A stretch of DNA of 64,000 nt from Limnomonas spitsbergensis (taxonomy: Eukaryota; Chlorophyta; Chlorophyceae; Chlamydomonadales): positions 3,694,001 through 3,758,000 of the forward strand of contig JAYJMM010000036.1 in assembly GCA_037349105.1 (NCBI GenBank). Reading direction: 5' to 3'. Positions 18,241-50,457 of this stretch are shown piece by piece. Every line of letters starts with the position of its first letter. Positions within the stretch are counted from its first letter, which is position 1. Under the pieces are notes generated by a model that ran no database searches, was not told the DNA's origin, and saw only the letters and a program-made list of their open reading frames with translations. The position numbers and the translations under genes were made by a program.

Positions 18241-18859
18241 TGTGATGAAATAAAAATAAATCTGAAGCCGTAATACCGTCACATGAATCCTGAACTATAC
18301 AATTTCGAGGGGAAAACAGGAAACCAATATTTCAGTCAGAAGCCCTGCTCAAAGCTACTTAAGAGGCATGTCTCGTGCGTATCAAGCAAAATGAAGGTGC
18401 CTCAAACATCATGAAACAAAGGGCATGGCTAGGCAATATAGTCTGCATAGTGAATCCGCTTAAAAATACAAAATAAAAGGTGGGAATGAGACTCGACTGA
18501 GCAGGTTGGTTGCGCATCATGACGCGCGCAATGACACCCACTGCGAACTTGGTCGACTCCACTCCTAGGGGGTAGTCTGGTAGATGGCCCATGCCAAATT
18601 CCTTCCATCTAGGCCCAAGGGCTGCAGAAAAGCTATCAAGATTTCTGGGCTAGTGCCAATGTAAAGAGCTGCCTCCTGGACTGATGCGGACATGCTCTCT
18701 TCAGATGAGCCTGGGGGAGGAAGGCTGCTGGGGTTGCAGGTGCATCATGGGCTGTAGGGGCAACAGGGGTGGCCATGATAGCAGCTGGTTCTCTGAATGG
18801 CACACCCACATACCGCAAGAACTCCGCTAGCCGCTCGCATATCCGTACAGATACAGATA

Positions 18860-26652: not shown

Positions 26653-26777
26653 CCTCCCACCTACACACGCACACTACCCCGCCTACCCCTCTCCCACTTG
26701 CCCCACTCACTTCCCCCCTTATCCTTTTCGATGAACTCCGATCTCTCTACCCCCCTACCTATCCACTTGCTTGGCCG

Positions 26778-30732: not shown

Positions 30733-31552
<820 letters not shown>

Positions 31553-32184
31553 TGTCACAGTATATTACAGTATACGTGACAGAACCGTTCAGACCGCAGT
31601 TAGCGGCCTCGGGGCCTCCGCAGCTTCTCTGCGGAGTCCTCGGATTTGAAGCTGAGACCTAGAAACCCGCTTACGCAGGTTGATTTGACAGATTGTACCG
31701 TACTCTGTATTGGGCCTGCCGGGTCCCTGTATCCCGGCAATTGCCTTGGCTAGTTACTTCGTCCCTTTCTAAAGGACAGACCTCTATTTGTAACAAGCAC
31801 CGGACGTCTTCGAGACCTACAGCTTACACATAAGTCAGTACCTTAATTCGAGTCAAGCCTAGCTCAGCCTCCGCTGAACTAGCTGGAGACAAGTACCCCA
31901 GTAAGAGAAACGAGTCCCTGCAGAAGAAGAAGTACGCAGCCTACGTCCCGTCCATCTCTCCGCGTGATACGCGGTAAGTGCCCTTAACATAGCCCGGCTG
32001 GTTCGCGACCAGACGGCCAGAAGGCCTATGCCCCTAAGTCAATTGCTATATACACAAATAACCAGCCCGCTGCTTAACTCGAAGAGCACTCGCAGCCAGT
32101 GAATAGTCACTGAGCCTGCCCGTAGGCGTCCATCACTGCCGTGAGGAAAGAAGTCCGCCACGGACCTGAAGCGCACATCGCGTG
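31553..32184 (+). repeat. Terminal repeat segment A1
   Basis: 632 bp, repeated at 49594-50223. It starts TGTCACAG and ends CATCGCGTG, so alone it lacks the usual CA end. It holds many perfect small hairpins: 31616-31636 (CTCCGCAG stem), 31717-31739, 31761-31777, 31960-31974, 31998-32012, 32097-32112 and 32153-32165. By analogy it should carry the transcription start. If priming is from the RNA 5' end, that start would be near 31755. Confidence 0.9.
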
Positions 32185-32206
32185 TCCTTTAGAAAGGGAC
32201 GAAGTA
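32183..32206 (+). promoter_or_regulatory. Candidate self-priming primer-binding site
   Basis: Begins at the A1/internal boundary, where a primer-binding site belongs. These 24 bases are the exact reverse complement of 31755-31778 inside A1. They do not begin TGG, as a site pairing with a tRNA 3' CCA would. Known: Tf1 of fission yeast primes from the folded-back 5' end of its own RNA. Inference: this element does the same, with the RNA 5' end at or near 31755 and the primer 3' end near 31776-31778. Confidence 0.6.
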
Positions 32207-32899
32207 GATTTAGCCTGATCAGCTCAATTTGCCAATTCCTGCTAAAGGTGCTTGTGCAGCGAATTGGAAATTTGTTTGCATACAAACGACCTTGGACAGC
32301 ATTTGAACTGCACTTTGCTGTGGTAATCTCCAGAGAGAGATTGCCAAGTTAAACTCTGAGAATCACTGAGCGTGGCAGCTTAGTGTTGAGTCCAGAAGAG
32401 GCTTGAAGATCTGGCTGTGGATTTATACACCCAGCAGATACTTTCCTGTGTGACTGCGGATTGAGATCAGGTGGATCCAATTTGTCATCATTGACAGAAG
32501 TGAACTTGTGAATAGAACATCCAAGGTTGAAATCTTGTGGGTGTGCCAAAGGATCCCCGCAGGAACGCGGAGCTGAGCGGACACTGTGCAAAAGGCAACA
32601 CCCACGCAGGGCGTGTGACATCCACGCGGGACGTGAGACATCTAGAAGCAGCCCGGCCAGCAAGGTGGGAAGAATTGAGAAGGCGAAGGAGGATTCCGCC
32701 AGATTAAAACTAGTGAGCAGAAAAGCAAGAAGGCGAGGCCTCCCCTGCATAGTGCCGTACCTGCCATCCGTTCTTGACTTGCAAAGTCCTCACCAGATTG
32801 CAGTAGGAACAAGGGGGCAGAAGCCTAGTGTTAGCAGATCTTGTAGGGGGTGTCGCCAGCACGCTTGCAGGACCGTGTGGTTCGCTAATTGCCTGTAGA
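32207..32899 (+). other. Leader between primer-binding region and polyprotein start
   Basis: About 690 bases without a long frame. The polyprotein frame is open from 32828, but its first ATG is at 32900. Near 32596-32635 there is a short direct repeat (CACGCAGGGCGTG, CACGCGGGACGTG). No splice sites are claimed. Confidence 0.5.
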
Positions 32900-35800
32900 A
32901 TGACAGACGTAGATCTAAATCCCGATAGGCACCAGCACCCTGATGCCCAACGGAGAAGTGGGCGTCTGAGGGGGCTGGAGCCGGGTGTAAACCTGATGGA
33001 GGCTAGTGATGAGCTAGCTGCAGAAGCACTGTTGGTGGCGGCAAAGCTGGCAGGGCCAGTGGAACCGCCCGCAGGAAGCTGCAAGGTGCCAGAGCCGGGT
33101 CGCGTACCGCCCAGAGAGGCAGGGGCGCAGGCAGACGGCTCAGCGCTGGTGACGCGCAAAGGCATCGGCCGAGGGGGTCCAGTGCCCGCCGATTTCAGGG
33201 GCAGCCTGGAATTCGAGCAGTGGCAGACTCAGGCTGGAACACCAGAGCTGATTTTGGATCAAGCAACAGAGGTGTCACAGAGCTGTGACACGCGGCAGAG
33301 CTGCGAGCCCAAGGCCACGCCCCAGCAGAATCCGCCCAGGGTGGCCAGGGTTGCGCAACGGGTCAACGAACCCAGTCAGCCGGATCAAAGGGCCGAGGAA
33401 GCCGCAGCACCAAGAGAGGTTGCAGGCTGTGATAAAGCCTGCCCAGACAAACAGCGAATGAAAGCAGAGGAAATGGAGGCCAGGAGTATGCCTGCAGGGG
33501 TCAAACACGAGGAAGCTGAGCCCCAGCCAGCAGCGGGCAGGCAGAGCTCGCAGGTCGGCAAGGAAAGGGAAAAGTCAGCTGTGCCGGTAGGAAATCCCTG
33601 GGCTGACCAAATATCCGAGGAAGAACTGTCAGACCCAGTTCAAGAAGAGAAGGGGCAGCAGTCTAAGACAGGACTGCGCCCAAGGCAGCAGCTGCGACCG
33701 CGCAGGGTGCTGGTCAGAAGAGGAGCTGGATCCACAGTCTACGGGACGCCGCTGTCCAGGTTTCCGCCCAGTGTGGGCAGACCTGTGCAGAAATCCAAGG
33801 AGGGATCTAGCAGCCTGACGCAGAGAGACGACAGCCACAAGGAAATCCTGCGAGGATTTTTTCACGATCCATCAGGAGCGCAGGATACCAGCCCGAGTGA
33901 GCCAGAGCGCCCCAGGGCTGGGGGAGCAGTGTGCGGCGAAAAGGAGTCAGAAGTACATATGCAGCCGATCGGTTGGACAGGAATTTTGCAGTGGGCAACG
34001 GATCTGTGGAAGCAAGTTTGCTCCAGGACGTTCCTGCATTTCCAGGACCAGGTCACAGCTATTGAGGAGTTCAAGGCCCATCATCTGCGGGGATGGGCAA
34101 CAAAGGCCATGCTGGGTATCCCCCACACAGGGCAGGACAGGGCAACGCTGTTAGCCGCTCTTGGACAGGTGTCCAAGGGAAGGGCGGGACGCGAAGCAGC
34201 ACTGGCTGTTAAGGCCTTCGCAGACGAGTGGTGCAACGAGGTAACAGGAAATCAAGTGGAACCTGGATCCGAGCCGGAAGAGGAGGAGGACCAGGCATGG
34301 GAAGGATTTGAAACAGCAGTGCAGCGACCGGAGGAGCTCAGGGAGGTGCAAAGGTGGCAGCAGCAGGCAAGAGCCGCGCCAACCCCGGCACTCAGATCAG
34401 AGGCCTTCGAGGTCAGCAGCGAGCCAAGCCTCAGGGGGCGACCAAGGGGCAGGGAAGCGCCCAGAGCCAGCAGTCCAGCCGCCAGCGAAAGGGCGGAGTT
34501 GACTAGCCGATCACTCGCCAGGATGGCAGAGCAAGGCACAGCAACACGCAGAGCAAGCAGGCAAGAGTCTTATGCGTTGCTACGCATAGTCGAGGACAAA
34601 GAGAACACATGCCAGGAAACCCAGGTGGATTACATCAAGGAATTCCTGAGGAACAGGCAGGCGGGCACAGCAAGTGGAGCCAGGAGGAATGAGCCTGCAG
34701 GCAGCGCACGGAGCAGTGGTCCAAGAATGCAGGAAGCCAGAGAGGAAACGCAGTCTGATTCCTATGCCAGGAATTACACAGGCGGGACGCAGCCAGGTTG
34801 GCATAGCCAGGAGCAGCCCAGAGGGCAGGCAGACGGCAGGGAACATCCAAGCCAGCATAGCCAGGAGCCGCCCAGAGAGCAGGCAGATGGCAGGGAACAG
34901 CCAAGCCAGCAAAGCCAGGAGCAACCCAGGGGACCAGCGGAACACAGCAGAGGGGTGAGGCATGAGCAAGACCAGGAGCTGCCCAGGGGACAGGCAGAGC
35001 CGGGCAGAGCGCAGTCTTGGAGGCCTGGCTCTGACAGCAGACCAGGCAGAGGCGAATCAGAACGGCTGCCACCCGAGGGAAGTAGAAGCTCTGCAGGAAG
35101 GGCAGGCAGGCAGCCATCACGAGAAGATCATGATCAGGAGGAGGATTATTACAGACACAACAGATACCATTCAGGTCGCAGCCCATCGAGGGGCGGTGGT
35201 GGAGGATCTAGGTCGCGGTCAGAATCAGTTGATTCGGGACCAGGAGGAGTGGACAGACGCAGGCCAGGAGCCAGGCAGGAGTCCAGCGACCAGGAAATGA
35301 AGAGGCTCGAGAGGGAGCAGGCAAGGGTGAACCTGCAGCTGCAGCAGCAAATGGTCCTGCAGCTGGCAGGGGTAGCCAAATTCACCAAAATTCCAGCCAT
35401 CCAAGGCAACGTGCCAGTGTTGGATATGTCGCACCCAGGCGCGGTTGCAGCCAGGAAATATTGCCAGGCATGTGGATATTGGGGATCGCACAACAGGCTG
35501 GCACTGTCAGATGACCCGCCAGCGCTGGCTGTGGTGGCCGGAGAAATAGCTGGGTCGTGCCAGTCGCCATCAGCCATGACGATGTTGGTGAAATCACTGG
35601 TCAAGCTATGGGACAGCAAGCCGGCTAGCGTGGGGCCACTGATGGTAGCCATCAGGGCGGCGCCCCATGCAGGAGACAGGGCTGCCAGAGAAGCAGAAAG
35701 GATAAGGGGGATGTGGGTTGCCCCAGCAGAGGAGCAGTGTTGTGAAGCCTCGCTGCTAACCTTGTGGATCAAAGTGGTTCAAGCAGAGGTGGGAAAGCCA

Positions 35801-38800
35801 ACCTCGGATGAGAGGACAGCCATTTCCAACCTCAGGCTAGGGGTGAAGACCACTCTTGACCCTGACGTCAAGCCAGAGGAGACGGTGGAAGCATTTGCTC
35901 ACAGAGTGCTGTCGACAGCAGAGTTGCTGCAGATCTCAAGGGATGCAGTGGACCACTTTGGCAGGAGGCACTCGGTCTCGCATCTGTTCCATGATGGACT
36001 TCCAGCGCTCGCTAAGGCCAAACTGAGCAAGTTTGTTATGACCGTCCCAGGGTACCTCAGCATGACAGACGAAGATCAGATTGCAGTACTCACACAGCAG
36101 GTGGTGCTGTGGGAAAAGTTTGCCCTGGAAATGGGGGATCTAGGAGGCGCAAGCCTCAAACAGATGGCCAGTGGGCCTGGCCAGGGGGAGGCGCAGTCCA
36201 ACAGAACAAGGAAGGAGAGAACAGGACAATGGGAGATGCGGACACGCCTTGAAGGGGCAGGGAACCCCGCAGGAGCAGCAGCTGCCCAGCAACAGCGGAG
36301 TGACAAACCCAGAGGAGTTACCTGGGCAGATCAATCAGGAGCACCAAATTACAGCGCAGAAGGCGCTGCATGGGCAGTCAAGGCATGCTACCAGTGTGGT
36401 AGCACGGCGCACCTGGCCAGGGATTGCAGGGCGCCCAGACCCAGGGATGAGCGCAGGCCGACGCCACTTGTTGCTGACATTACAGCTGGGCAGTCCAGGC
36501 CGCAGCAGCAGCAGTACCCGCTCCCACCAAGGCCGCAGCAGATTCAGCCTGCAGGCAGACCGTACGAGCGGAATCAAAACAACAGGCAGTACCAACGGCC
36601 AGGGCCTGGCCAGGGGGGTCAGGCTCAGCAAGCAGCACACGTGTCTCACCTAAGCAGCCCAACGGGGCAAGCCGAGCCAGAGGGCTGGCAACAGACTATG
36701 GCAGAGATGCTCAGCGAGTCTGTAGCACTCATGACGCAGGTTGGGCTAGTGCCCAAATCCGCAGGATTCAAGCAGGCGGCTCACAACGCTCGTCCTAGGT
36801 CATTCTTGCCAGAACCCTGTCCGGAGGAGGAACCTGAGCAAAGGCTCGTGGAACCTGCCTCCAGGAAGGGAGCAAAGAGACTGGTTTTGAGCAAATTAGC
36901 TGACGATATGTCTGACATCCGACTGCAGGTGTTCAAGTTGAACGAGAGGCTGACGGCGCTGTCATTCACCACTATGCCCATGGGTTCAGAAGACCACAGG
37001 GGTAAGGCCAGTAAGGGCAGGCAGGAAAGCAAGGTGGTCACAGCTGCACCAAGGCTGCAGTATTTTAAGAACGACAGAAGCAACCTGGAGCAATGTGTGG
37101 GCCTAATGGTCAAAGGAAAGGTCCTGGTGGCACAGAAGGCCCTCATGGACTCAGCGTGCTCCTGTCATGTGATCACAGTCAACATCGCAGAACAGTTAGT
37201 CGCCATGGGGGCAGAGCTGATCAGGACGGATGAGAAGATCCGCACGACAGACAATGCAGGGGCAGATCTGTATGGGGTGCTGTTCATTTATGTGGTGTAC
37301 GGATATGGAGGGCCCAATGCTATTATGGAACCCACGGTGGTCAGGGTCGTAAAAACACCGCCCGATGCATACGAACACTTGGTGGGGAACCCAGAGTTTC
37401 TCAAGTACAATGGGGTTTTAGAGGCAGCAGGAAGGCTGACATTACGCCCCAGAGATGGCCCCCAGACAGTACGAAGGGTCAGGGACCTGACGCTGCCGTT
37501 GGTCCTAGCATCCCCAGCAGGGGGGTACCAGGCAGCAGCAGTAGCATGGGCAGGAATCCGGTGTGGATTTGCAGAACGTGAAAGGTGGCCCGCGGCCAGG
37601 GTAGAGGAAGAACACGAGCCGCTCTTACAGCACGCCATGGCCACACACGCAGGTGCCGCCATGAGGACTGACCAGAAGGTGGGACAGAGTCGCGGAACAG
37701 CCGCAGGTGCAGGCAGAAGCACCGCAGATGCGGGCAGGAGCAGCCGTAAGGACCCGCAGGAGACTGTGCCCAGGCCGCGCCAGTGCGGGCAAACGCAGGC
37801 TGCAGTGCCCAGGGAGGGCAAGGTGGGCGCCAAGGCCGCTGCGTCACTATCGGGCCAGGCAGCAGCACAGGCAGTGGCCACTGCTGAGTTAGCAATGGCA
37901 CTCAAGGCAGAGTCAAGGCCGGAATACGAAAAGGAGGTCATTAGGAGATGTATGGAGACAAGCCCGCGCTACCCATGTGTCTTGTGCGGAGAACCTGGCC
38001 AGCACTCAACAGAGGAGTGTGAACAGAGGATCCGGGAGATACTGCAGAAGCCTGCGGCAGGCCCCGCAGCCCAGGGGACATCACCAGGGGCCAAAGGGCG
38101 GGTAGGCTTTGGAGGAGCCGCAGCAGCAAGAGCTGCGTCAGTAGGACCCAGCAGGCACTCGGAGGCGCAGGTGCCTGGCAAAGGCGAGAGGGCCAGTGCG
38201 GCTGACGGGGGCGGTAGGGAAGACGCCCCGGCAGCAGCAGAAGGAACGCAAGGGATCCCAGCAAACCGCGGACAGGAGGAGCCTGTCGGCAGGGAGGAGA
38301 GGGAAGTATCAGAGGAATCAGAGGAGGAAGAGGTCCATGATCGAAGGACCCCGAAGTACATACGGGTGCTGAGGCTGCAGCAACAAGTAGAGTTACTGCA
38401 GCACGACGTCAAGGCAAGGGAAGAGCTGCTGTACCGCCAGGCGGCTGCAACAATTGAATACCTGAGGTTGCAGCAGGTCAGGTGGACAGGCCTCCAGGAC
38501 GCCAATATACGGCTCACGGAGGTACAACGGCAATACATCTTGCGTGCAGACCAGCTGCGAGCGCTGTACGTCAACCTGGGGAGCCAGCAGACAGGAGAGC
38601 AGCTGCAGTCCGCAATCCCAGGTGACCCGGCGCTGGCAGAGCATATGGCAGCCATGTTTCAAACTGCGAAGGAGTTCGCGGAGGAGGACGAGAGCCTGAG
38701 CCAGGAGAAGCTGCAGGACCAGGAGCAGCAAGCCACCGGTCAGCAAGAACCAGGGGGCAGTGGTGGGGCCAGGCAGGCCAGCGGGGAAACGCGAGTGCGG

Positions 38801-41800: not shown

Positions 41801-44800
41801 GAGCCAACAGAGCAGGGCCATGTCGCCTTTGTCACCACTCTCGGGGCAACAGCATCCTCTTGGGAGTGGCTGGAGCCCATGGAGGACATGGAGGTGTCAG
41901 CCCTGGAGGCTGAGACCGGGGATTGGGCGGAGCCCCAGACAGTCCCGGACAGTGCCAGCCATGAGGACAGGGGGCTGCTGGAAGAGGAGAATGAAGACCC
42001 TTCGGAAGGGCCACCATCACTGGTGCAGGATTCAGAATCGGAGGATGAGTGGGGCGCTGACAGAAGCCCGTGCCCAGCAAGGATCAGCCTCACAAGAGCT
42101 GATACCGGGGATGCAAATGGGATGGAAGAGCCGGCCAGCGCAGGCCCTGGACCAGGGAGTCCAGTGTGGGGCCGCGAGGAGGACTTGGTACAACTACGGC
42201 AGGAATGGATGCGCGAGGTTGCTCAGGAGCAAGCAGCCATGGAAGAGCGCAGAACCAGGAGAGCCGAGATAGAACGCAGCAGCAAGGCCGCGCTAGAGGA
42301 GACGGCACACAAGGTCACAGTAGGGGTGAACCCGCAGCAGGCAGCAGACCAGTGCGCTGGCGAGCCCAAGGGGGCAGCAGCAGGCAAGGCGAACGGCAGG
42401 AGCCCAGGGGACGCACAGATCAGCCCGCCAGCACAGGCAGCAGCAAGGGAGCCTTGGGGCGATCCAGCAGCATACAGCACGGAACGCTGGGTGGCAGTGC
42501 TCAGACACTTCGGGGATGAGCTAGACGTGCTAAGAAGGCAGGAAATGGGGCAGCAAGAGGCAAGCCAGGAGGCTAGCCTAGTTTTCAGGCTCAGAATGCT
42601 GCCACAGCCCGATCCGAACCCCAGGATGGGAGGTTACAGCAGGGCGGTCAGGGAGCTACAGGAGGAACTGACGGAGAGAATATCAGCCCTCAACAGGATG
42701 GGGGCAAAGGGAGTGGACACCCAACAGCCGTCGGACAGCCGGAGCAGCCAGGCGTACACCAGCAGGGGGGAGGCCCTTGCAAGGAGGGCTGCCAGCGCTA
42801 GGGCAACCTTGCGACAGGGCTGTGGGCCTGAGGAGCCCGCGGGTGCCGGCAGCAGCACGACTGTGCAGCGCGCCATTCACAGGCAGGAGCGGCTGGCACA
42901 GGGCAGCACAGGTCAGATACCAAGAGCAGGGCCAGAAAGGGCTGGTGCGGCTTGGACTGACGCTGCCGAGTTGCGGGGGAAAAAGTCCAAAAAGGCTAGG
43001 CGGCGCGCGGGAAAGGCGCAGAGGGCAGCCGAGGACAGGAACCGTGGCAGCAGACCAGGAATGGACTGCCCAGTCCTGCCACTCAGGATCAGCCAGGTGG
43101 ATCTGGAGATCACATGGGCCAGTGGGCAGCAGAGGCCGGCGCAGAGCGCAGAGCCAGGCGCACAGCCCGCAGAACACCTACCGCAGAAACCCACGAGGCA
43201 GATACCAGCTTGCAGAGGACTTCTCACCTGTACAGCATTTAAGGGGATCCTTACGGGGGCGCTCCAGCTGATACTGGTGTGGCTCCTGCTGTCAGTATGT
43301 GTGCCAGGGGCGCGAGCCACCGGGCAGGGCGTGCGAGGAGGAGGATTTACAGCAGGCCAAGGGGCTTTTGTGTCTGGACAAGAGGCAGCAGCAAAGCTGT
43401 CGTCTGGATGGTTGCGCCCGCCAGCAGTCATTCCCATGGGGGGTGCCAGCAGGAGGGGTGCCTGCAGCCAGCAGGAGAGCTGGCAAAGGGGCAACGACAC
43501 TGGCAGGGAAGAGCCGCCCGCGGAGGACGACCCGCAGGCGGCTGAGATGATCGACATGTTCCAGCCGGGGGGAGTCGTGGAGCCGCCCGCGGCGTACGTC
43601 AAAACCAAGGAGGGGTGGCTGCTGGGCCAGCACCCCGACTTCACTGCGGCACAACAGGAGAGCCTGGAGCAAAGCCTCAGGGATCGCCAAGGAGCGTTCG
43701 CTTACTCCATGGAGGATCTGCCTGGCTACTGCGGCACGCAGGGTGAGTTTACACTGGCTTTAGAAGACGAGGTCAGTTCGTGCTTTCAGAAGTCCAGGGA
43801 TATGCCGCCGCCCAAAGCAGCCATTTTTAAAGAAAAGTGCCAGCCAATGATACAGGCAGGTATTATCGTCAAAGTACCCCAGGGGGGGCCTATCAAGTTT
43901 GCGGCCAACTCAGTAGTAGCAGCCAAGAAGAGTGCTGAGACTGGGGAGTGGACTGACCACCGGATAGCGCACGATATGCGCAGGTTAAACCTGCGTACGG
44001 CTAAGCAGGAGTTTGCAATCCCCAGGATGGAGACCATTTTTCAGAACCTGGGAACTGCCAAGATATTCAGCAAGGTTGATCTCCGGTCGGGGTTCATGCA
44101 GATCCCTATAAAGGTCGAGGACCAGCCTAAGACAGCTTTCTGGATGGGCCCTGAGCTTTGGATGTACACAAAGCTCAACTTCGGTCTGCGCAATGGACCT
44201 CCCTTCTTTCAGCGTATGATGGAAGAGGAGATTGCCAGGGCAGGCCTGAGTGCGTTCTGCGTGGCATTCATTGATGATCTGCTAGTGTACAGTGACACAC
44301 CGGCAGAACACATCAGGCATGTGGAGCTGATGTTAGACATGCTCCACAGTGTAGGATTAAGGGCGCACCCCGACAAGTCCCTGTTTGGGTGTGCAACGGT
44401 AGAGTACCTGGGTCACAATGTGTCGGCCCAGGGGCTCACGCCACACGCAGCCAAGATAGCAGCGGTTATGGCGCTGCCAGAGCCCACATCGGTGAAAAAC
44501 ATTCAGGAGGTCATGGGATTCTTGAATTTCTACCGGTGCTACATCCCGGATTTCTCGAAAAAGGCGGCATGCATCAACGCATTGCTGGTCAAGGGGGTCC
44601 CGTTTGTGTGGGGGCCAGAGCAGTCGCAGGCGTTCCAGTTGATCAAAACAGAGATGTGCGAGGGAGGAAGAGTTCTGCGCAGGCCAGATTACAGTGGGAC
44701 AGGGCCAGACGGCAAGGGGCCGCCGAGACCATTCTTGCTGTACACAGATTTCTCTAAGCAGGGCATAGGTGCCGTGCTAGGACAGTGTGACGACAGCGGG

Positions 44801-47800
44801 CGGGAGTATATGGTGGCGTGCACGTCCAGATCCCTGAACAAGAGCGAGAGGAACTATTCCTCGTTCCAGGGGGAGATGCTGGCCGCAGTGTATGCAGCAC
44901 GCACATACCGTCACATGCTGTTCGGGTGCAAGGTGCATCTCATCACCGACCATGAGCCGCTCACTTACCTCATGGACAATCAGACGTTGGTAGGCCAGCA
45001 TGCTAGGTGGGCCCTCATGCTTCAAGAGCTGGACATTACCATTGTCCACCGCTCAGGGGCATGCCATCAGAATGCGGACATCCCGTCCAGATCACCACTC
45101 CCATCCTCAGCTGATCGCACGGGGGCCAGGCTTGATACAGCAGCTCCCGAGCCGGCAGCCCAGGAGGGGGCAGGGGGGAAGCAGGTAGCTTTGCTCACGG
45201 GGTTGGGCAGAGTGAACCAGTGGCATGCAGACCAGATGGTGCGCATGGCACAAGAAGGCAGAAGAAGAGTACAGATACTGCGAGCTGCAGAGGCAGCTTA
45301 CGTGACAGCGCCGGTAGGGCAGGAGATATCCTCAGCCGCCACTGACGATGATGAGCAGGCGCAGCCGGTCAGTACAGCAGAACAGGCATTCAGCAACAGG
45401 GAGCGGGCCAGGACAATGATCAGTGATGTTCTAGCTGACCTGCCCCGGGTGATGCCTCCTCATTCACATGCAGGCCTGGACACAGCTTGTCTGTCGGGTG
45501 GGGCAGTGCGGGCCATGGAGACCGAGGGAGTCGTCCTTTTCGAGCCCTTTGGGGGTATGTGTTCAGGGTTGGAGATGGTGCTCAGAGCGGGTATCCCAGT
45601 GGTGCAGTACCTGTACGCTGATATCAGTGAGGAAGTCAGAGAGATCGCAGGGGGGCGCCTGGTGCAGTTGCACAGGAGATACCCTCAGTTGTTTCCGGTC
45701 AAAGCATTTGATAAGGCGTTCAGAGCGTTGCCCCAGGATGTGTATGCCATTACGGCAAAGCACCTCCAGGAGGCGGGCGCCCAGGAGGGGCGCCAGTGGT
45801 TCATGGTAGCAGGCTGGGAATGCCAGGACCTTTCGTCAGCAGGCAAGGGGCGTGGGCTCGAGGGAGAGAGAAGCAAGTCGTTCTTCCCGTTAGTCAAGCT
45901 GTTGGGTACACTACAGTTCATGCAGGGGCCTAGGCCGCCAGCGTACCTGATTGAGAACGTGGCAATGCAGTTGAATCAGAAGAGTGTGAAGGCCAGTGTT
46001 GAGGCTTTTCAGGAGGTGTGCCGGATTCTGGGAACACCGGCGCTGTTTGACGCAGCGCAGGTGGGGTCTTACGCCCACCGCACCCGCAACTATTGGGGGA
46101 ATATTGCCCCGGCAGCAGATATTGAATTTGTGATTCGTGCGTCGACCAGACCCCACGAGGGGATTGCAGACGACATTCTGGACAAGGGCAGCAAGGCCCA
46201 AGTAGTATCATGTCCGGACAATGGGGGGTACCGCATCAATGTAACAGGGCAGCCCAGGAAAGTGCTGCCGTGTTTGATGGCCACGCCCTCATCATATGCT
46301 TTCCGGAACGGGCAAAATGGGATGGTGTACAGGCCCATGGGGGACTTGCAGGAGCCCAATGCAAACGAGCGTGAGCGCGCCATGGGGTACGCTGTGGGGT
46401 CCACATTGCCGCGCCCAGACTTCCCAGAGGCAGCCAGACGGGCAGCCTTGGGCAGGAGCATGGATTCATGGGCACTCAGTGCATGGCTCAGTGTGGCACT
46501 CGAGTGTGCTAAGATCATGCCAGCAGAATTGACACGCAGGGCAAAGCTGCCAGGCCAGGACAGGGACCCAGCTCTGGGGGCGACTTTAATGTCCAGCCAC
46601 TATGCCCTTGCTACTGCAGGAAACGCATGCTCCGGCAGCGGAGAAGCGGCCGCATCATACAGACAGTGCCTGGGAGAATCAGCCGCGGCAGACTGGGCCG
46701 ACGCGGCACAGGAGCCAGGTGGGAACGCGTCTGCAGAACAAGTTGATGTTGGAATCAAAGTACCCAGGGAAACAGAGAGTGAGAAGGACCAGCCAGGTTG
46801 TCCTGCAGGACCGTCGGCTAGGGTCGATGTGTGGGCGGATGAGCCCGTCTTGAGGTTTCTCCGTGAAAAGACTTATGTCCAGGGAACAGAGCTAGGAGAA
46901 CAGACTAGAATACAGCGCAGAGCAGCGCCATTCCAGTGGGAATCAGAGAGGGGAGGAGTCCTGATGAGACTCATGCCTGATGGTAGACGTTGTGTGGTGC
47001 CCAGGCCAGAAGACAGGCTAGCAGTGATCCAGACAGTGCATGCAGGTACGGGCCATTTTGGCAGCCACCGCACGGCTTTCATGGTCATGCAGCAGCATTG
47101 GTGGCGGGGGCTTCGAGCAGCAGTCAAGAAGGCGGTGCAGGAATGCGGTGTGTGTGACAGAGCCAGGGCGTCCACGTTTAATCACATACAGCCCAACCTA
47201 CACCCGCTACCCATTGAGGGGTTGTTTTTCCGGTGGGGAGTGGACCTGTGTGGTCCATTCACGACCACGTCCAGGGGAAATCGGTTCGTGATGGTGTGTG
47301 TGGAGCATTACTCCAAATGGGTGGAGTTAATCCCCATTCCAAGCAAGGCGTCTGATGTGACGGCCTTGGCATTCTTTCAAAATGTTGTTGCACGATTCGG
47401 GGGATGCGCAGAGGTGGTGACAGACCAGGGAACAGAGTTCCAGGGTGAATTTCAGGACATGTTGTTGGACTGCTTCATTGACCATCGCACCACTTCTGCC
47501 AACCACCCCCAGGCAGATGGGCTTTCAGAGAGGGCTGTCCAGACCCTCAAGGCAGGCCTACGCAAGTGCTGCGAGGAGGGCAGCAGCGACGAGTCCTGGG
47601 ACAAGATGGTGCCCTGGGTAGCCCTAGGCTTCCGATGCTCGCCGCAGCAGGCCACGCGCATGGCGCCGTACGAGGTGCTGTTCGGACAGAGACCCACCTT
47701 CCCCTCCAGAGTGGGAGCGGACCTCTGGAGCACAGCCAAGGTGGCAACGGCAGAGGAGGCAGCAGACCTGCTCTTGGCCAGAGTGGCCAGGATCAAAGAA

Positions 47801-48631
47801 GCACTGCCAGTCGCGGGTGAGCATCTAAAAATTGCGCAGCACCGCGACAAGCTGCGATATGCACGCATCCGTGGGGGAGGGTATGTCCCCCAGGTCAGGC
47901 GTTTTGCAGAGGGAGATTACGTGTATGTGAAGTATTCATCAGAGCGACGCAGCCTCGATCCCAAGGCCAGGCCTGAGATCCTCAGGGTCAAAACACTGGG
48001 GGCGACGGGAACTTTGGTGTTGGAAGGGGCAGATGGCCTCACAGTTACAGAGAATGCAGTCAATTGTTCTCCATGCCACTTGCCCAACCTCAGGGGAGTG
48101 GTTGATTTCAGTGGAACCAGACCCAATAACAGCCTGTCATGCGAGGTGTGCCAGCTGCCCGATCGCGGAGAGGTGATGCTTTTGTGTGATGCCTGCAATA
48201 CAGGTTGGCACATGGACTGCTTGGTACCAGTACTCGAGGAGGTGCCTGAGGGCGAGTGGTTGTGCCCACACTGCAAGCCGGAAGACAAGGGAGCTGGGCC
48301 CGCTGCTGTAGCAGGGCCCACCACAGAAGAGCGCAGTTTACAGGTCCAGGGGCGACCAAGCCCAGCAGCCAGAGCGGCTGCCAGGACAGCCCAGGAGGCC
48401 GATGTCTTGGACAGGCCTGAGGTGGAAGTCATGGCCACCAACCCAGCAACAAGGCAAATGGAGCGGGGCATCGCAAGACCAATGGCGAACGGGTTGTATG
48501 ACATCTCGTACACCACTGGCCGGGGAGAGGCCAATGTCACCCCGAGAGCAGTTACAAGAAGGGCCAAGGTGGCCAAAGAAGCAGCAAGGGAGGAAGAAGA
48601 GTCAGCCTTTGAGGATCTTACCGGGACCTGA
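32900..48631 (+). CDS. Gag-Pol polyprotein with C5-cytosine methyltransferase and PHD finger (5,243 aa)
   Basis: First ATG at 32900 (AGAATGACAGAC). Domains by position: acidic, Gln/Arg-rich Gag region; CCHC knuckle CYQCGSTAHLARDC (36386); protease-like LMDSACSCHVIT (37142), with DSA where DSG/DTG is usual; Cys/His knuckle CVLCGEPGQHSTEEC (37976); coiled coil (38350-38620); CCHC knuckle CFNCQKPGHFASAC (39179); about 1,400 residues of unknown type; a hydrophobic span LQLILVWLLLSVCV (43265); Ty3/Gypsy reverse transcriptase with FIDDLLVYS (44267); RNase H with YTDFSKQG (44741) and ITDHEPL; C5 methyltransferase (about 45520-46530); integrase HHCC finger (47038-47155) and catalytic Asp 47243, Asp 47423, Glu 47528 (34 residues between the last two); PHD finger (48140-48282). 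The protein copies the element RNA, inserts the DNA and may methylate cytosine. One unbroken frame implies processing by the protease or unequal translation. Confidence 0.92.
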   Translation: MTDVDLNPDRHQHPDAQRRSGRLRGLEPGVNLMEASDELAAEALLVAAKLAGPVEPPAGSCKVPEPGRVPPREAGAQADGSALVTRKGIGRGGPVPADFRGSLEFEQWQTQAGTPELILDQATEVSQSCDTRQSCEPKATPQQNPPRVARVAQRVNEPSQPDQRAEEAAAPREVAGCDKACPDKQRMKAEEMEARSMPAGVKHEEAEPQPAAGRQSSQVGKEREKSAVPVGNPWADQISEEELSDPVQEEKGQQSKTGLRPRQQLRPRRVLVRRGAGSTVYGTPLSRFPPSVGRPVQKSKEGSSSLTQRDDSHKEILRGFFHDPSGAQDTSPSEPERPRAGGAVCGEKESEVHMQPIGWTGILQWATDLWKQVCSRTFLHFQDQVTAIEEFKAHHLRGWATKAMLGIPHTGQDRATLLAALGQVSKGRAGREAALAVKAFADEWCNEVTGNQVEPGSEPEEEEDQAWEGFETAVQRPEELREVQRWQQQARAAPTPALRSEAFEVSSEPSLRGRPRGREAPRASSPAASERAELTSRSLARMAEQGTATRRASRQESYALLRIVEDKENTCQETQVDYIKEFLRNRQAGTASGARRNEPAGSARSSGPRMQEAREETQSDSYARNYTGGTQPGWHSQEQPRGQADGREHPSQHSQEPPREQADGREQPSQQSQEQPRGPAEHSRGVRHEQDQELPRGQAEPGRAQSWRPGSDSRPGRGESERLPPEGSRSSAGRAGRQPSREDHDQEEDYYRHNRYHSGRSPSRGGGGGSRSRSESVDSGPGGVDRRRPGARQESSDQEMKRLEREQARVNLQLQQQMVLQLAGVAKFTKIPAIQGNVPVLDMSHPGAVAARKYCQACGYWGSHNRLALSDDPPALAVVAGEIAGSCQSPSAMTMLVKSLVKLWDSKPASVGPLMVAIRAAPHAGDRAAREAERIRGMWVAPAEEQCCEASLLTLWIKVVQAEVGKPTSDERTAISNLRLGVKTTLDPDVKPEETVEAFAHRVLSTAELLQISRDAVDHFGRRHSVSHLFHDGLPALAKAKLSKFVMTVPGYLSMTDEDQIAVLTQQVVLWEKFALEMGDLGGASLKQMASGPGQGEAQSNRTRKERTGQWEMRTRLEGAGNPAGAAAAQQQRSDKPRGVTWADQSGAPNYSAEGAAWAVKACYQCGSTAHLARDCRAPRPRDERRPTPLVADITAGQSRPQQQQYPLPPRPQQIQPAGRPYERNQNNRQYQRPGPGQGGQAQQAAHVSHLSSPTGQAEPEGWQQTMAEMLSESVALMTQVGLVPKSAGFKQAAHNARPRSFLPEPCPEEEPEQRLVEPASRKGAKRLVLSKLADDMSDIRLQVFKLNERLTALSFTTMPMGSEDHRGKASKGRQESKVVTAAPRLQYFKNDRSNLEQCVGLMVKGKVLVAQKALMDSACSCHVITVNIAEQLVAMGAELIRTDEKIRTTDNAGADLYGVLFIYVVYGYGGPNAIMEPTVVRVVKTPPDAYEHLVGNPEFLKYNGVLEAAGRLTLRPRDGPQTVRRVRDLTLPLVLASPAGGYQAAAVAWAGIRCGFAERERWPAARVEEEHEPLLQHAMATHAGAAMRTDQKVGQSRGTAAGAGRSTADAGRSSRKDPQETVPRPRQCGQTQAAVPREGKVGAKAAASLSGQAAAQAVATAELAMALKAESRPEYEKEVIRRCMETSPRYPCVLCGEPGQHSTEECEQRIREILQKPAAGPAAQGTSPGAKGRVGFGGAAAARAASVGPSRHSEAQVPGKGERASAADGGGREDAPAAAEGTQGIPANRGQEEPVGREEREVSEESEEEEVHDRRTPKYIRVLRLQQQVELLQHDVKAREELLYRQAAATIEYLRLQQVRWTGLQDANIRLTEVQRQYILRADQLRALYVNLGSQQTGEQLQSAIPGDPALAEHMAAMFQTAKEFAEEDESLSQEKLQDQEQQATGQQEPGGSGGARQASGETRVRHRGATPDDAVHTVARERSRSAQRARSAERRGAVPTPEARTQRPDRDDSFDRPSGRRQQSPSGNRGSQPRGRSQERGTGSHARPYQLEQRMQDRGGTSNQSPPGRAQAGRSVMGGQRIVLGPRDGGVCFNCQKPGHFASACPEQGEASQPGDSSRFDRSRAAGGPERSWGVRGPGRSQEASEDSMRRAYEAAKEVSFEEWKRQQETAGPSELPGPPGRPGPAGQSYNSRWVSQERHTCMMSVHEGFGQNAAARGVSYQAAAMPVTFQVVPEGQVAQQRHHWQMVVEALAMNHYGTRPAGSARSMAHAVEFLRNLQQRGCPAPCEGWPGILQQFLDKEWDIYNDQMDEFERIEQEAGLQHRVDGWETSSSEDGTNDSEEGHEPQAPVAAREEEAAMPCPGTPEGNADTGVGVAVAAAGTRNGLSRQDHHPGAKGAAAMSPEDTTAGAVRTHHSTTSRSSAARWEEEDRGLQSSRSRGERPAAGNEDSQFIQAGTGRRGRSGSRGRARPEPDLPRLPESRCFVQWYRLGEEMPEASSSEAMITLPAQSKDGLCRLQNHRLLEDRSHTCVNIAAAMQAVARLIFPWDAVTAVLLGAALKGFIQPSTRMEVYMQRGWSRHPIYASCVSEMVELAVKEGITAVAAADRAHPDVPDSARTEGAWQGAQPGFMRTPWAEDCAHQLMEHSALRDRAFYVPVQAFREHGRGDRPEDGAHSGAGLCHADRPRRCEATVEASVTIPRMVAGQAVPWGMDPGEARAAIPVQQLVTYYYEELEEGEMPVSAAWIHMHASRDDMPVFLFARCEGNVAITRYASVDEAAFHAHTHARGADPATWAVMLMALQRVLLPGQLSAAMRHVWGVDDQWAPLEMTDCPTWPYGAQRSPADGPMWEDEEEFARSPFAVERLEACVHQWVRWERRAWRDNRASSAVPYWQANGMTVQLWRQAHPAGVRTLHPLFRGARADTYMQELEELRTQPVPGRWMVGRWGSHHWDPASITDGPIQDTYQEPTEQGHVAFVTTLGATASSWEWLEPMEDMEVSALEAETGDWAEPQTVPDSASHEDRGLLEEENEDPSEGPPSLVQDSESEDEWGADRSPCPARISLTRADTGDANGMEEPASAGPGPGSPVWGREEDLVQLRQEWMREVAQEQAAMEERRTRRAEIERSSKAALEETAHKVTVGVNPQQAADQCAGEPKGAAAGKANGRSPGDAQISPPAQAAAREPWGDPAAYSTERWVAVLRHFGDELDVLRRQEMGQQEASQEASLVFRLRMLPQPDPNPRMGGYSRAVRELQEELTERISALNRMGAKGVDTQQPSDSRSSQAYTSRGEALARRAASARATLRQGCGPEEPAGAGSSTTVQRAIHRQERLAQGSTGQIPRAGPERAGAAWTDAAELRGKKSKKARRRAGKAQRAAEDRNRGSRPGMDCPVLPLRISQVDLEITWASGQQRPAQSAEPGAQPAEHLPQKPTRQIPACRGLLTCTAFKGILTGALQLILVWLLLSVCVPGARATGQGVRGGGFTAGQGAFVSGQEAAAKLSSGWLRPPAVIPMGGASRRGACSQQESWQRGNDTGREEPPAEDDPQAAEMIDMFQPGGVVEPPAAYVKTKEGWLLGQHPDFTAAQQESLEQSLRDRQGAFAYSMEDLPGYCGTQGEFTLALEDEVSSCFQKSRDMPPPKAAIFKEKCQPMIQAGIIVKVPQGGPIKFAANSVVAAKKSAETGEWTDHRIAHDMRRLNLRTAKQEFAIPRMETIFQNLGTAKIFSKVDLRSGFMQIPIKVEDQPKTAFWMGPELWMYTKLNFGLRNGPPFFQRMMEEEIARAGLSAFCVAFIDDLLVYSDTPAEHIRHVELMLDMLHSVGLRAHPDKSLFGCATVEYLGHNVSAQGLTPHAAKIAAVMALPEPTSVKNIQEVMGFLNFYRCYIPDFSKKAACINALLVKGVPFVWGPEQSQAFQLIKTEMCEGGRVLRRPDYSGTGPDGKGPPRPFLLYTDFSKQGIGAVLGQCDDSGREYMVACTSRSLNKSERNYSSFQGEMLAAVYAARTYRHMLFGCKVHLITDHEPLTYLMDNQTLVGQHARWALMLQELDITIVHRSGACHQNADIPSRSPLPSSADRTGARLDTAAPEPAAQEGAGGKQVALLTGLGRVNQWHADQMVRMAQEGRRRVQILRAAEAAYVTAPVGQEISSAATDDDEQAQPVSTAEQAFSNRERARTMISDVLADLPRVMPPHSHAGLDTACLSGGAVRAMETEGVVLFEPFGGMCSGLEMVLRAGIPVVQYLYADISEEVREIAGGRLVQLHRRYPQLFPVKAFDKAFRALPQDVYAITAKHLQEAGAQEGRQWFMVAGWECQDLSSAGKGRGLEGERSKSFFPLVKLLGTLQFMQGPRPPAYLIENVAMQLNQKSVKASVEAFQEVCRILGTPALFDAAQVGSYAHRTRNYWGNIAPAADIEFVIRASTRPHEGIADDILDKGSKAQVVSCPDNGGYRINVTGQPRKVLPCLMATPSSYAFRNGQNGMVYRPMGDLQEPNANERERAMGYAVGSTLPRPDFPEAARRAALGRSMDSWALSAWLSVALECAKIMPAELTRRAKLPGQDRDPALGATLMSSHYALATAGNACSGSGEAAASYRQCLGESAAADWADAAQEPGGNASAEQVDVGIKVPRETESEKDQPGCPAGPSARVDVWADEPVLRFLREKTYVQGTELGEQTRIQRRAAPFQWESERGGVLMRLMPDGRRCVVPRPEDRLAVIQTVHAGTGHFGSHRTAFMVMQQHWWRGLRAAVKKAVQECGVCDRARASTFNHIQPNLHPLPIEGLFFRWGVDLCGPFTTTSRGNRFVMVCVEHYSKWVELIPIPSKASDVTALAFFQNVVARFGGCAEVVTDQGTEFQGEFQDMLLDCFIDHRTTSANHPQADGLSERAVQTLKAGLRKCCEEGSSDESWDKMVPWVALGFRCSPQQATRMAPYEVLFGQRPTFPSRVGADLWSTAKVATAEEAADLLLARVARIKEALPVAGEHLKIAQHRDKLRYARIRGGGYVPQVRRFAEGDYVYVKYSSERRSLDPKARPEILRVKTLGATGTLVLEGADGLTVTENAVNCSPCHLPNLRGVVDFSGTRPNNSLSCEVCQLPDRGEVMLLCDACNTGWHMDCLVPVLEEVPEGEWLCPHCKPEDKGAGPAAVAGPTTEERSLQVQGRPSPAARAAARTAQEADVLDRPEVEVMATNPATRQMERGIARPMANGLYDISYTTGRGEANVTPRAVTRRAKVAKEAAREEEESAFEDLTGT
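45520..46530 (+). other. C5-cytosine DNA methyltransferase domain inside the polyprotein
   Basis: Ordered motifs of the family: I, VLFEPFGGMCSGLEMVL (45533; S-adenosylmethionine site); IV, GWECQDLSSAGKGRG (45812), with the catalytic Cys at 45821-45823 but Glu where Pro of PCQ is usual; VI, YLIENV (45944), with the catalytic Glu codon at 45953-45955; VIII, AHRTRNYWGN (46072); IX, KVLPCLMA (46259); X, ERAMGYAV and ALGRSMDSWALSAWL (46375-46485). The motif VIII form and the GRS of motif X are closest in style to DNMT3-type enzymes. All the catalytic residues I know are present, so activity is plausible. It lies between RNase H and integrase in the same frame, so it is part of the element and not a host gene interrupted by it. 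Confidence 0.88.
48140..48285 (+). other. PHD finger at the integrase C terminus
   Basis: The spacing C-x2-C ... CDAC-x4-H-x2-C ... C-x2-C is complete (CEVC, LLCDACNTGWHMDC, WLCPHC). Known: PHD fingers read the histone H3 tail, modified or unmodified at Lys4. Chromodomains occupy this place in many Ty3/Gypsy integrases and steer insertion, so I infer a targeting role. About 110 residues follow, ending at the stop at 48629-48631. Confidence 0.88.
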
Positions 48632-49147
48632 AGCCCGGAGCGGCAAGGCCGCTGAGCACGTGACGTCACCCACGCCGTAACTGGCAAGGAGCGGGCAGGC
48701 GCCTACAGAGCAGAAGTGCAGATGCAGCGCGGCTTGTCCTAGTACCCGGTAGGCAGTGGGCCAGCAGCCAGAGGACCGAAGACGGAAGACGCAGGAGTAG
48801 AGTTACGGCAGCTTAATGAAAATTTGTTTCTCAAACACCATAGCAGCAGGGCTACGGTAGTACATATGTTATAAGGATGATGAGCGAGGAGAATTAGTCA
48901 ACTCGGGCAGTGATAGCACGGTAGGAGGCGGATCACGCTGCTACGGCGCACAAACCCTGTGGCCATTAAAGACCAGGCGGCTATGGCGCAGTGGGGCGAG
49001 AGCAGCGGTTGTTCTTAGCTTGACTTGATAACTTTGAAATTTCTCTGTTTGCTAGCCAGTAGTGGGCTGAACAGCTTGAGTTTGTAGGGTTCTGCGCATT
49101 GCGCTTCAGCTGCAACTCGGTTAATTGTTATTTCCAGATTTGCAGAA

Positions 49148-49250
49148 GGCCTGAACCAGGCAGATTTGTCGACGGCCTGCACCAGGCAAGATTTTAAAAG
49201 GCCTGAGCCAGGCAAATTTGTAGAAGGAAGGACCCAGGCATATTTGCAGA
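49148..49250 (+). repeat. Four 26-bp palindromic repeats in the 3' untranslated region
   Basis: Units starting near 49148, 49174, 49200 and 49228 each contain GCCTGnnnCAGGC (the last copy decayed) followed by AATTTG-like sequence. Each can fold into a 5-bp stem with a 3-base loop. They lie between the stop codon (48631) and the G-rich tract. Confidence 0.7.
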
Positions 49251-49344
49251 TGATGATTTGAGCTTCTACGTACATATTTTTCCAGAAGTTTATTTCAGTA
49301 CCACCCCTTTTCCGGCTCCCCGCGCACGCCTGGAGGGCTTAACG

Positions 49345-49360
49345 CTGGGGAGCGGGGGGC
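49345..49360 (+). promoter_or_regulatory. Candidate polypurine (G-rich) tract for plus-strand priming
   Basis: TGGGGAGCGGGGGGC ends exactly where B1 begins (49361). It is purine-rich with two C interruptions. Its position directly before B1 says that, for reverse transcription, the repeat runs B then A. Confidence 0.5.
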
Positions 49361-49591
49361 GAGTAAAGTAGTAGGGGCGGTACCCACGAGACGGAGACTT
49401 CTAGGCAGAGACATCCAGTTAGGGACTTCCAGTTACAGGAATCTTGTTAACAAGCTCTTGTCTGAAGTACAAGGAGCATGAGTGTACGGTGATGTACCGT
49501 ATTTGTGAGTAGAGGACACCTCTCTAAGGTGTCCTGACCGGAGTTTACGGTGTTTACCATAGTATTGCAGTTACTGCTTTATGGTGCGACA
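49361..49591 (+). repeat. Terminal repeat segment B1
   Basis: 231 bp, repeated at 50223-50453 with one substitution (near 49439). It holds the 12-bp palindrome CTTGTTAACAAG (49443-49454), a TACGGT stem (49485-49501) and an AGGACACC stem (49513-49535). It ends GCGACA. B1 is missing after A1 at the left end of the element. Confidence 0.9.
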
Positions 49592-49597
49592 GCTGTC
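49588..49597. promoter_or_regulatory. Palindromic junction between B1 and A2
   Basis: GACAGCTGTC is a perfect 10-bp palindrome made of the right end of B (GACA), two bases GC, and the left end of A (TGTC). These are the same sequences that form the outer termini of the inserted element, so the junction looks like joined integration ends. Confidence 0.75.
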
Positions 49598-50223
49598 ACA
49601 GTATATTACAGTATACGTGACAGAACCGTTCAGACCGCAGTTAGCGGCCTCGGGGCCTCCGCAGCTTCTCTGCGGAGTCCTCGGATTTGAAGCTGAGACC
49701 TAGAAACCCGCTTACGCAGGTTGATTTGACAGATTGTACCGTACTCTGTATTGGGCCTGCCGGGTCCCTGTATCCCGGCAATTGCCTTGGCTAGTTACTT
49801 CGTCCCTTTCTAAAGGACAGACCTCTATTTGTAACAAGCACCGGACGTCTTCGAGACCTACAGCTTACACATAAGTCAGTACCTTAATTCGAGTCAAGCC
49901 TAGCTCAGCCTCCGCTGAACTAGCTGGAGACAAGTACCCCAGTAAGAGAAACGAGTCCCTGCAGAAGAAGAAGTACGCAGCCTACGTCCCGTCCATCTCT
50001 CCGCGTGATACGCGGTAAGTGCCCTTAACATAGCCCGGCTGGTTCGCGACCAGACGGCCAGAAGGCCTATGCCCCTAAGTCAATTGCTATATACACATAA
50101 CCAGCCCGCTGCTTAACTCGAAGAGCACTCGCAGCCAGTGAATAGTCACTGAGCCTGCCCGTAGGCGTCCATCACTGCCGTGAGGAAAGAAGTCCGCCAC
50201 GGACCTGAAGCGCACATCGCGTG
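49594..50223 (+). repeat. Terminal repeat segment A2
   Basis: 630 bp, a copy of A1 lacking two bases near 50097 (CACATAACC against CACAAATAACC). No other difference was found by eye. It passes directly into B2, the joint being CGCGTGAGTAAAG, with one shared G. Confidence 0.9.
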
Positions 50224-50453
50224 AGTAAAGTAGTAGGGGCGGTACCCACGAGACGGAGACTTCTAGGCAGAGACATCCAGTTAGGGACTTCCAGTTACAG
50301 TAATCTTGTTAACAAGCTCTTGTCTGAAGTACAAGGAGCATGAGTGTACGGTGATGTACCGTATTTGTGAGTAGAGGACACCTCTCTAAGGTGTCCTGAC
50401 CGGAGTTTACGGTGTTTACCATAGTATTGCAGTTACTGCTTTATGGTGCGACA
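50223..50453 (+). repeat. Terminal repeat segment B2
   Basis: Copy of B1 ending GCGACA, after which TATA (50454-50457) repeats the four bases before A1. A2 plus B2 together form an 860-bp TG...CA unit, the size and ends of an ordinary LTR. Confidence 0.9.
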
Positions 50454-50457
50454 TATA

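Follow-up and report, generated by a model that had tools for sequence, protein, structure and literature searches.

A split-repeat element and its family

Positions 31553 to 50453 of a 64,000-nucleotide stretch of the Limnomonas spitsbergensis genome (contig JAYJMM010000036.1; the whole stretch is called the window here) hold a Gypsy-type retroelement with split direct repeats. The copy runs in the order A1, primer-binding site (PBS), a polyprotein of 5267 amino acids, a G-rich tract, B1, the dinucleotide GC, A2, a short insert j and B2 (Table 1). An initial annotation had read A on the left and B, A and B on the right, and the direct repeats were located where it had placed them; its A of 632 bp is a genuine repeat that stops at 32182 rather than at 32184, positions 32183-32184 being part of the PBS. 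The TG...CA outer ends that it reported, at the start of A and the end of B, are bounded by duplications, and the TATA that it offered as a possible target duplication flanks both ends, with 4-bp duplications recurring in the family.

The Pol order of the polyprotein, reverse transcriptase, RNase H and then an integrase with HHCC and DDE residues, is that by which Ty3/Gypsy elements are recognised, with a methyltransferase interposed between RNase H and integrase. Against solved structures the top match of Pol was Ty3 (7q5b, 1.4e-72), the integrase part had foamy virus (PFV) integrase among its best matches (4.9e-14), and the methyltransferase was nearest to DNMT3A (3e-8). All catalytic and zinc-binding residues of the integrase are intact, as the initial annotation had read them. 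It had also seen no tyrosine recombinase, and none was matched at family level when the polyprotein and the five antisense open reading frames (ORFs) longer than 200 amino acids were searched, shorter frames and other loci lying outside the search. In a chosen set of 17 Pol proteins (that of the window and 16 matches), the reverse transcriptase, RNase H, integrase and PHD models matched throughout, and the methylase model matched 9 of the 17. No aspartic protease was matched by Pfam in the polyprotein, which has a DSA-like motif at 37145. Methyltransferase motif IV is usually PCQ or PCN; in the DNMT3-like domain of the window it reads ECQ.

Further copies with this order and with target duplications were sought in the same genome (260 Mb, 124 contigs). 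A B-A-B query gave at least 47 matches, 44 of them full length and seven of those in one tandem array on contig C40, and A1 with its adjoining internal DNA gave at least 40; both counts are lower bounds, since the best 40 of about 2000 candidates were scored for each query. Genome-wide, B-NN-A joins number 1056 at up to two mismatches (reversed control, 6) and A/PBS joins 577 at up to three (control, 0). Left ends were selected without regard to upstream sequence, and at all 30 A1 loci the 1500 or so bases upstream contained no B and no sign of the order A-B-A-internal-B. When these 30 left ends were compared with 23 right ends, 20 pairs were formed, leaving 10 left and three right ends unpaired; because the right ends came from the B-A-B query, the pairs say nothing on the frequency of other right-end types. 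The four bases before A1 equal the four after B2 in 19 of the 20 pairs, and two more pairs carry duplications (C99, TCCT; C19, TGGA). Overall, 21 of 22 pairs combine TG...CA ends with an exact 4-bp target duplication directly outside them, as is typical of Ty3/Gypsy elements, the chance of such a duplication being about 1/256 per copy. One of the 21 sits within a run of six C, and C111 is the sole pair without a duplication. The copy on C120 measures 4.1 kb and lacks most of the internal region, yet it is paired, and thus an internally deleted copy shares the layout. Of the eight remaining left ends, two (the C40 array and C26) have B-A-B or a joint 14-19 kb downstream and six have no partner among the matches listed. 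Thirty-four of the 76 exact A/PBS sites listed among the matches on C3-C34 are followed by an exact B/A join 10-20 kb downstream.

The layout itself is certain, and insertion by a DDE integrase with a 4-bp duplication is close to certain. A Ty3/Gypsy element should also carry the same full long terminal repeat (LTR) at both ends, and this it does not do, having A on the left and B-A-B on the right.

Table 1. Features of the element copy in the window (window positions; a dot marks features given no strand)
Feature	Position	Strand	Remarks
Whole element	31553-50453		Lies between TATA target duplications
Left target duplication	31549..31552	.	TATA
A1	31553..32182	+	630 bp, starts TG; interpreted as 3' portion of a B-A LTR
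Self-primer stretch in A1	31755..31778	+	Exact 24-nt complement of PBS
TGTAA	31789..31793	+	Sole one in A, none in B2; possible poly(A) signal
Primer-binding site	32183..32206	+	Putative, self-primed type; first base directly after A
Polyprotein	32828..48631	+	Single open frame, 5267 aa, no internal stop
Zinc knuckle 1 (Gag)	36386..36427	+	Under Pfam cut-off
Zinc knuckle 2	39179..39220	+	
Reverse transcriptase	43958..44422	+	RVT_1, 3.9e-22
RNase H	44723..45028	+	
DNMT3-like cytosine methyltransferase core	45734..46108	+	Between RNase H and integrase
Integrase HHCC zinc domain	47009..47170	+	
Integrase core	47234..47530	+	D, D, (34) E; codons 47243, 47423, 47528
PHD finger	48140..48274	+	C-terminus
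G-rich tract	49342..49361	+	Ends at B1; candidate plus-strand primer (polypurine tract, PPT) by position and composition
B1	49362..49591	+	230 bp
Palindrome GACAGCTGTC	49588..49597	.	Across the B1/A2 join; CA-GC-TG = both integrase ends, 2 bases apart
A2	49594..50221	+	GC separates B1 from A2
j insert	50222..50223	+	TG, between A2 and B2; identical to PBS letters 1-2
B2	50224..50453	+	Direct repeat of B1; ends CA
Right target duplication	50454..50457	.	TATA

Reverse-transcription signals and the A2/B2 joint

The 24 bases following A1 are the exact complement of a stretch that begins about 202 nt into A. At all 30 A1 loci 23-24 nt pair with the PBS in this way, each time from the first base after A, against a maximum of 10 nt of complementarity in 460 40-mers sampled from the internal region. 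The PBS adjoins the 5' repeat, as in Ty3/Gypsy elements, and by complementarity is of the self-primed type; a tRNA-primed PBS would begin TGG, which this one does not. Because the self-complement of 23-24 nt begins directly after A, the end of A is the most likely origin of minus-strand DNA, and a plus-strand start at the G-rich tract abutting B1 would fit the other boundary. As reverse transcription would see it, the LTR thus seems to be B-GC-A, of 862 bp. TGTAA, an algal poly(A) signal that is putative in this element, lies in A, 34 bases downstream of the point where the self-primer stretch begins; if it is used, the RNA would end in A2 and exclude both j and B2.

Variation at the joint between A2 and B2 bears on how it arises. 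In the commonest form, CGCG/AGTAAAG, the end of A is joined exactly to the start of B, and variants carry T, TG or TGT, which are the first letters of the PBS (TGT in L078-L080); other forms occur at L015, L020, L030 and L075. Joints of the type A-N(0-20)-B with exact flanks number 214 genome-wide. Among the first 100 of these, 77 have no insert, 13 have one base, eight have two, one has three and one has thirteen, while 32 inserts in the full set of 214 start with T (18 are T, 10 have two bases, two have three, one has ten and one thirteen). All eight of the two-base inserts listed are TG, and G, the insert expected from the PPT side, is rare (3 genome-wide). The proposition that every letter of j comes from the PBS was rejected, since the 13 one-base inserts listed comprise four T and nine A.

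Inheritance of the joint was followed on a tree of 40 B-A units, obtained from 50 loci (L001-L030 and L061-L080) by removing nine array rows and the partial L075. Joint type changes eight times on this tree, compared with 8.8 times after shuffling (as low in 36 of 200 shuffles), and the ten near-identical copies L001-L010 hold three joint types. Because type follows the tree so little and L001-L010 vary, j is remade at least often and is not simply inherited. This is the pattern that two-LTR joints would be expected to show if primer removal were imperfect, and from its letters the A2/B2 joint looks like two reverse-transcription DNA ends joined with variable inserts.

Renewal of the repeats shows in 20 copies, within which A1 and A2 differ by 0-3 (by zero in 10) and B1 and B2 by 0-1 (by zero in 16), compared with between-copy medians of 13-25 for A and 7-11 for B. 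The contrast is clearest in two copies: in C117 the A repeats show no difference from each other and 15 from the nearest other copy, and in C120 the corresponding values are 0 and 9 for A and 0 and 6 for B. The A comparison is informative in five copies (C99, C40, C63, C120 and C117) and the B comparison in C40, C63, C120 and C111 (0 against 3-6). In the informative copies B2 tracks B1 and does not follow an independent line.

Tandem repetition of B-A units was also observed. At C40:594785-609676 (L076, L077) a copy ends in an array of nine near-identical 862-bp B-A units, read in two stretches and probably interrupted by another insertion. Five joints with a similar spacing of 851 bp lie at C116:3534730-3538155, and pairs of joints 864-883 bp apart occur on C22, C28, C32 and C93.

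Proposed route of insertion and its rivals

The integrase ends of chromosomal copies are TGTCAC at the start of A and GACA at the end of B, and the same ends oppose each other inside the LTR as GACA-GC-TGTC. The interpretation favoured here, at a probability of roughly 0.68, is of a Ty3/Gypsy-type retrotransposon in which reverse transcription sees B-GC-A as the LTR, the integrase ends lie in mid-LTR and a joined two-LTR form is opened at the inner palindrome. Of its steps, a two-LTR intermediate with joined ends counts as likely, and the best reading of what follows is that the integrase opens the inner palindrome.

Under this model the RNA would extend from about 31755 in A1 to just beyond the same point in A2, its 5' end pairing with the PBS to prime the minus strand, and the plus strand would be primed from the G-rich tract before B1. 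The product would be an ordinary linear BA-internal-BA molecule, whose A-end and B-start would be joined, sometimes keeping primer letters or an extra base, into a two-LTR circle or its equivalent; the joint is the part of this step seen in chromosomes. The integrase would then cut GACA-GC-TGTC in the PBS-side LTR on both strands, and because the spacer is of two bases this should leave 5' overhangs of two bases together with a pair of ready CA ends. Concerted strand transfer would finally insert A-internal-B-A-B with a 4-bp duplication, and both this product and the duplication are observed.

Opening of the PBS-side LTR gives A-internal-B-A-j-B, and opening of the other LTR gives A-B-A-internal-B. 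The initial annotation had suggested that a two-LTR circle cut at one B/A junction would yield the observed order: the resemblance of the joint to joined ends and the recurrence of duplications uphold this, but a cut at random also predicts A-B-A-internal-B, an order that was not encountered. Its absence from 30 of 30 loci, each covering about 1500 bases upstream, does not fit a symmetric circle opened at random.

Several points weigh against the favoured interpretation. A symmetric circle predicts A-B-A-internal-B equally often and it is unseen in 30 loci, so that the model lacks an ordered step; one thought is that cleavage of the PBS-side LTR takes place while the other LTR is not yet double-stranded throughout. 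The route, circle included, is deduced from chromosomal copies alone, 10-bp palindromes are also present elsewhere in B-A-B, and the G-rich tract (13 G and 15 purines in 20 bases) is not a clean purine run. The one-base inserts genome-wide, 18 T, 13 A and 3 G, are not all PBS letters, and the 214 joints, among which are units of tandem arrays and probable segmental duplicates and from which eroded joints are missing, are not all separate events. Furthermore, TGT and T joints cluster in one deep clade, where they make up four of five rows (three TGT and one T; for TGT, the number of changes is as low in 25 of 500 shuffles), and some inheritance of j is therefore possible. For young copies, divergence from the nearest other copy is no greater than that between sister repeats, so that the comparison of repeats is decisive for about five copies. 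Finally, 51 of 98 listed B/A joins have an exact-flank A/B joint 500-720 bases further on and the other 47 do not, which may reflect decay, variant joints or another structure.

The strongest competitor, itself unlikely, is replication of the PAT/DIRS type combined with a DDE integrase. A template-copy model has been proposed for split-repeat elements; here the RNA would run from A1 into B2, fused B1-A2 would repair both ends, and j and B2 would be copied from the template in every cycle. Such replication would account for the unseen A-B-A-internal-B and sits well with the partial clustering of TGT and T joints in one clade, and the repeat order matches that given for PAT, Ngaro and VIPER (PMC6681497). 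A copied j, however, should not vary among near-identical copies or take up PBS letters as the observed j does, and this model is also opposed by the coincidence of the A-end and B-start with the PBS and the G-rich tract and by the near identity of B1 and B2 within copies.

A doubtful alternative, standing somewhat lower, is that two linear cDNAs are joined (or a concatemer is formed) instead of one being closed on itself. A molecule BA-internal-BA-j-BA-internal-BA cut at two B/A sites one element apart would give the same product with the same j, and tandem B-A arrays do exist (C40); nevertheless, two distant cuts would have to be paired, the bias against A-B-A-internal-B is left equally unexplained, and mixed parents should make A1-A2 differences more frequent than observed. 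Insertion by a hidden or separately encoded tyrosine recombinase, for which the repeat order would be typical, is very improbable given the 4-bp duplications, the TG/CA ends and the intact DDE integrase, and given that none was matched within the search described above. Post-insertion rearrangement or misassembly of ordinary LTR copies can be set aside almost entirely, for although tandem repeats may be misassembled and C9:3187497 has B-GC-A ahead of A/PBS (coordinates only, not readable), 22 loci share the layout, 21 with 4-bp duplications exactly at the A and B ends, a recurrence that neither misassembly nor a single loss of a 5' B explains.

The C9 locus (C9:3186863-3188354) is the only one of the 76 listed A/PBS sites with B-GC-A directly upstream, and has another B-GC-A 0.8 kb downstream. 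Known by its coordinates, it may represent a short copy whose repeats are ordinary BA units, or else a rearrangement.

Relatives, precedents and implications

Named protein relatives come from the chlorophytes Haematococcus, Pleodorina, Chlamydomonas, Tetrabaena and Cymbomonas and from one bacterial metagenome-assembled genome (MAG) record. Relatives of the element also occur on five short contigs (L082-L086) filed under bacterial or archaeal MAGs, which are probably eukaryotic contamination; none contains B-A-B repeats of at least 30 bp. The two ends of one of them, L084, are identical over 127 bp and probably represent collapsed repeats; neither a clear self-primer nor a clear palindrome was found in it. 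No relatives were found among viral contigs. Elsewhere in the window, a long interspersed nuclear element (LINE)-like frame at 20251-28463 encodes an endonuclease and a reverse transcriptase with a C-terminal PCIF1_WW match, followed by an RNase H frame, and weaker matches to PCIF1_WW and RNase H lie at 13222-14662. Minisatellites occupy 17199-18241 (66-bp units, alternatively 265-bp) and 58911-59370 (56-bp units).

To our knowledge, DIRS, PAT and Ngaro elements leave no target duplication. LTR retrotransposons of the Tf1 type have a PBS complementary to their own RNA, and Tf1 has ordinary LTRs. The present element shares the self-complementary PBS with Tf1 and differs from it in repeat structure and in the position of the complement, about 202 nt into A. 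Split direct repeats accompanied by a tyrosine recombinase are described for DIRS, PAT, Ngaro and VIPER (PMC6681497); PAT, Ngaro and VIPER have the same A1-internal-B1-A2-B2 order, but theirs is a tyrosine recombinase whereas a DDE integrase and a 4-bp duplication are found here. The tie that the initial annotation drew between this layout and tyrosine-recombinase elements holds for PAT, Ngaro and VIPER and breaks down in one published drawing, that of a Gypsy element (PMC5890265).

That drawing shows KnitGypsy-Dnmt3 of Klebsormidium nitens, which combines Gypsy domains with a Dnmt3-type methyltransferase located in Pol and, according to the legend of Fig. 4c, has its repeats in DIRS order (PMC5890265). 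The subject of the corresponding section of de Mendoza et al. 2018 is the methyltransferase together with methylation, the repeats being mentioned in the figure legend only (PMC5890265). By that legend, and not by sequence, the two elements are alike in Gypsy Pol, Dnmt3-type methyltransferase (DNMT3A being the best match here) and DIRS-type order. They are unlike in that KnitGypsy-Dnmt3 has a charophyte host and, in that section, a description without target duplication, PBS, junction or route (PMC5890265), whereas the window element has chlorophyte protein relatives and a C-terminal PHD finger. No KnitGypsy sequence was identified among the protein matches.

Cleavage of joined ends has retroviral precedents. 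PFV integrase is described as cleaving both strands of the two-LTR palindrome, which leaves ends as after normal processing (PMC1180852), and HIV-1 integrase is likewise described as cleaving its own two-LTR palindrome in vitro (PMC1905944). PFV resembles the present case in its HHCC-DDE integrase, its joined LTR ends and the two-base spacing of its integrase ends within a palindrome (PMC1180852); it differs in that its palindrome is the LTR-LTR joint, while here the palindrome lies within the LTR and j is carried into the chromosome.

Since KnitGypsy-Dnmt3 has the same order, the kind of element is not wholly new. In the open-access literature, searched by titles and the openings of abstracts with drawings outside the search, no other treatment of such elements was found. 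The novelty lies in the anatomy described here and in the observations that support a route, no account of the mechanism having been found in that literature. Integration from two-LTR circles has been argued over in retrovirology for decades. The PFV report reopened the question of whether such circles are a substrate (PMC1180852). The chromosomal copies described here seem to carry the circle joint repeatedly in one genome, and the question can thus be tested in an alga or by means of one purified enzyme. They also break the rule of thumb that A-internal-B-A-B denotes a tyrosine recombinase. A stronger proposal, rated slightly better than even, is that the two-LTR circle is the obligatory substrate of the whole family, with the integrase site shifted into the LTR, the PBS-side LTR opened and the joint of the parent circle preserved in each insertion. 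If so, the split repeats of Gypsy elements would have arisen independently of tyrosine recombinases, through a shift of a single cleavage site.

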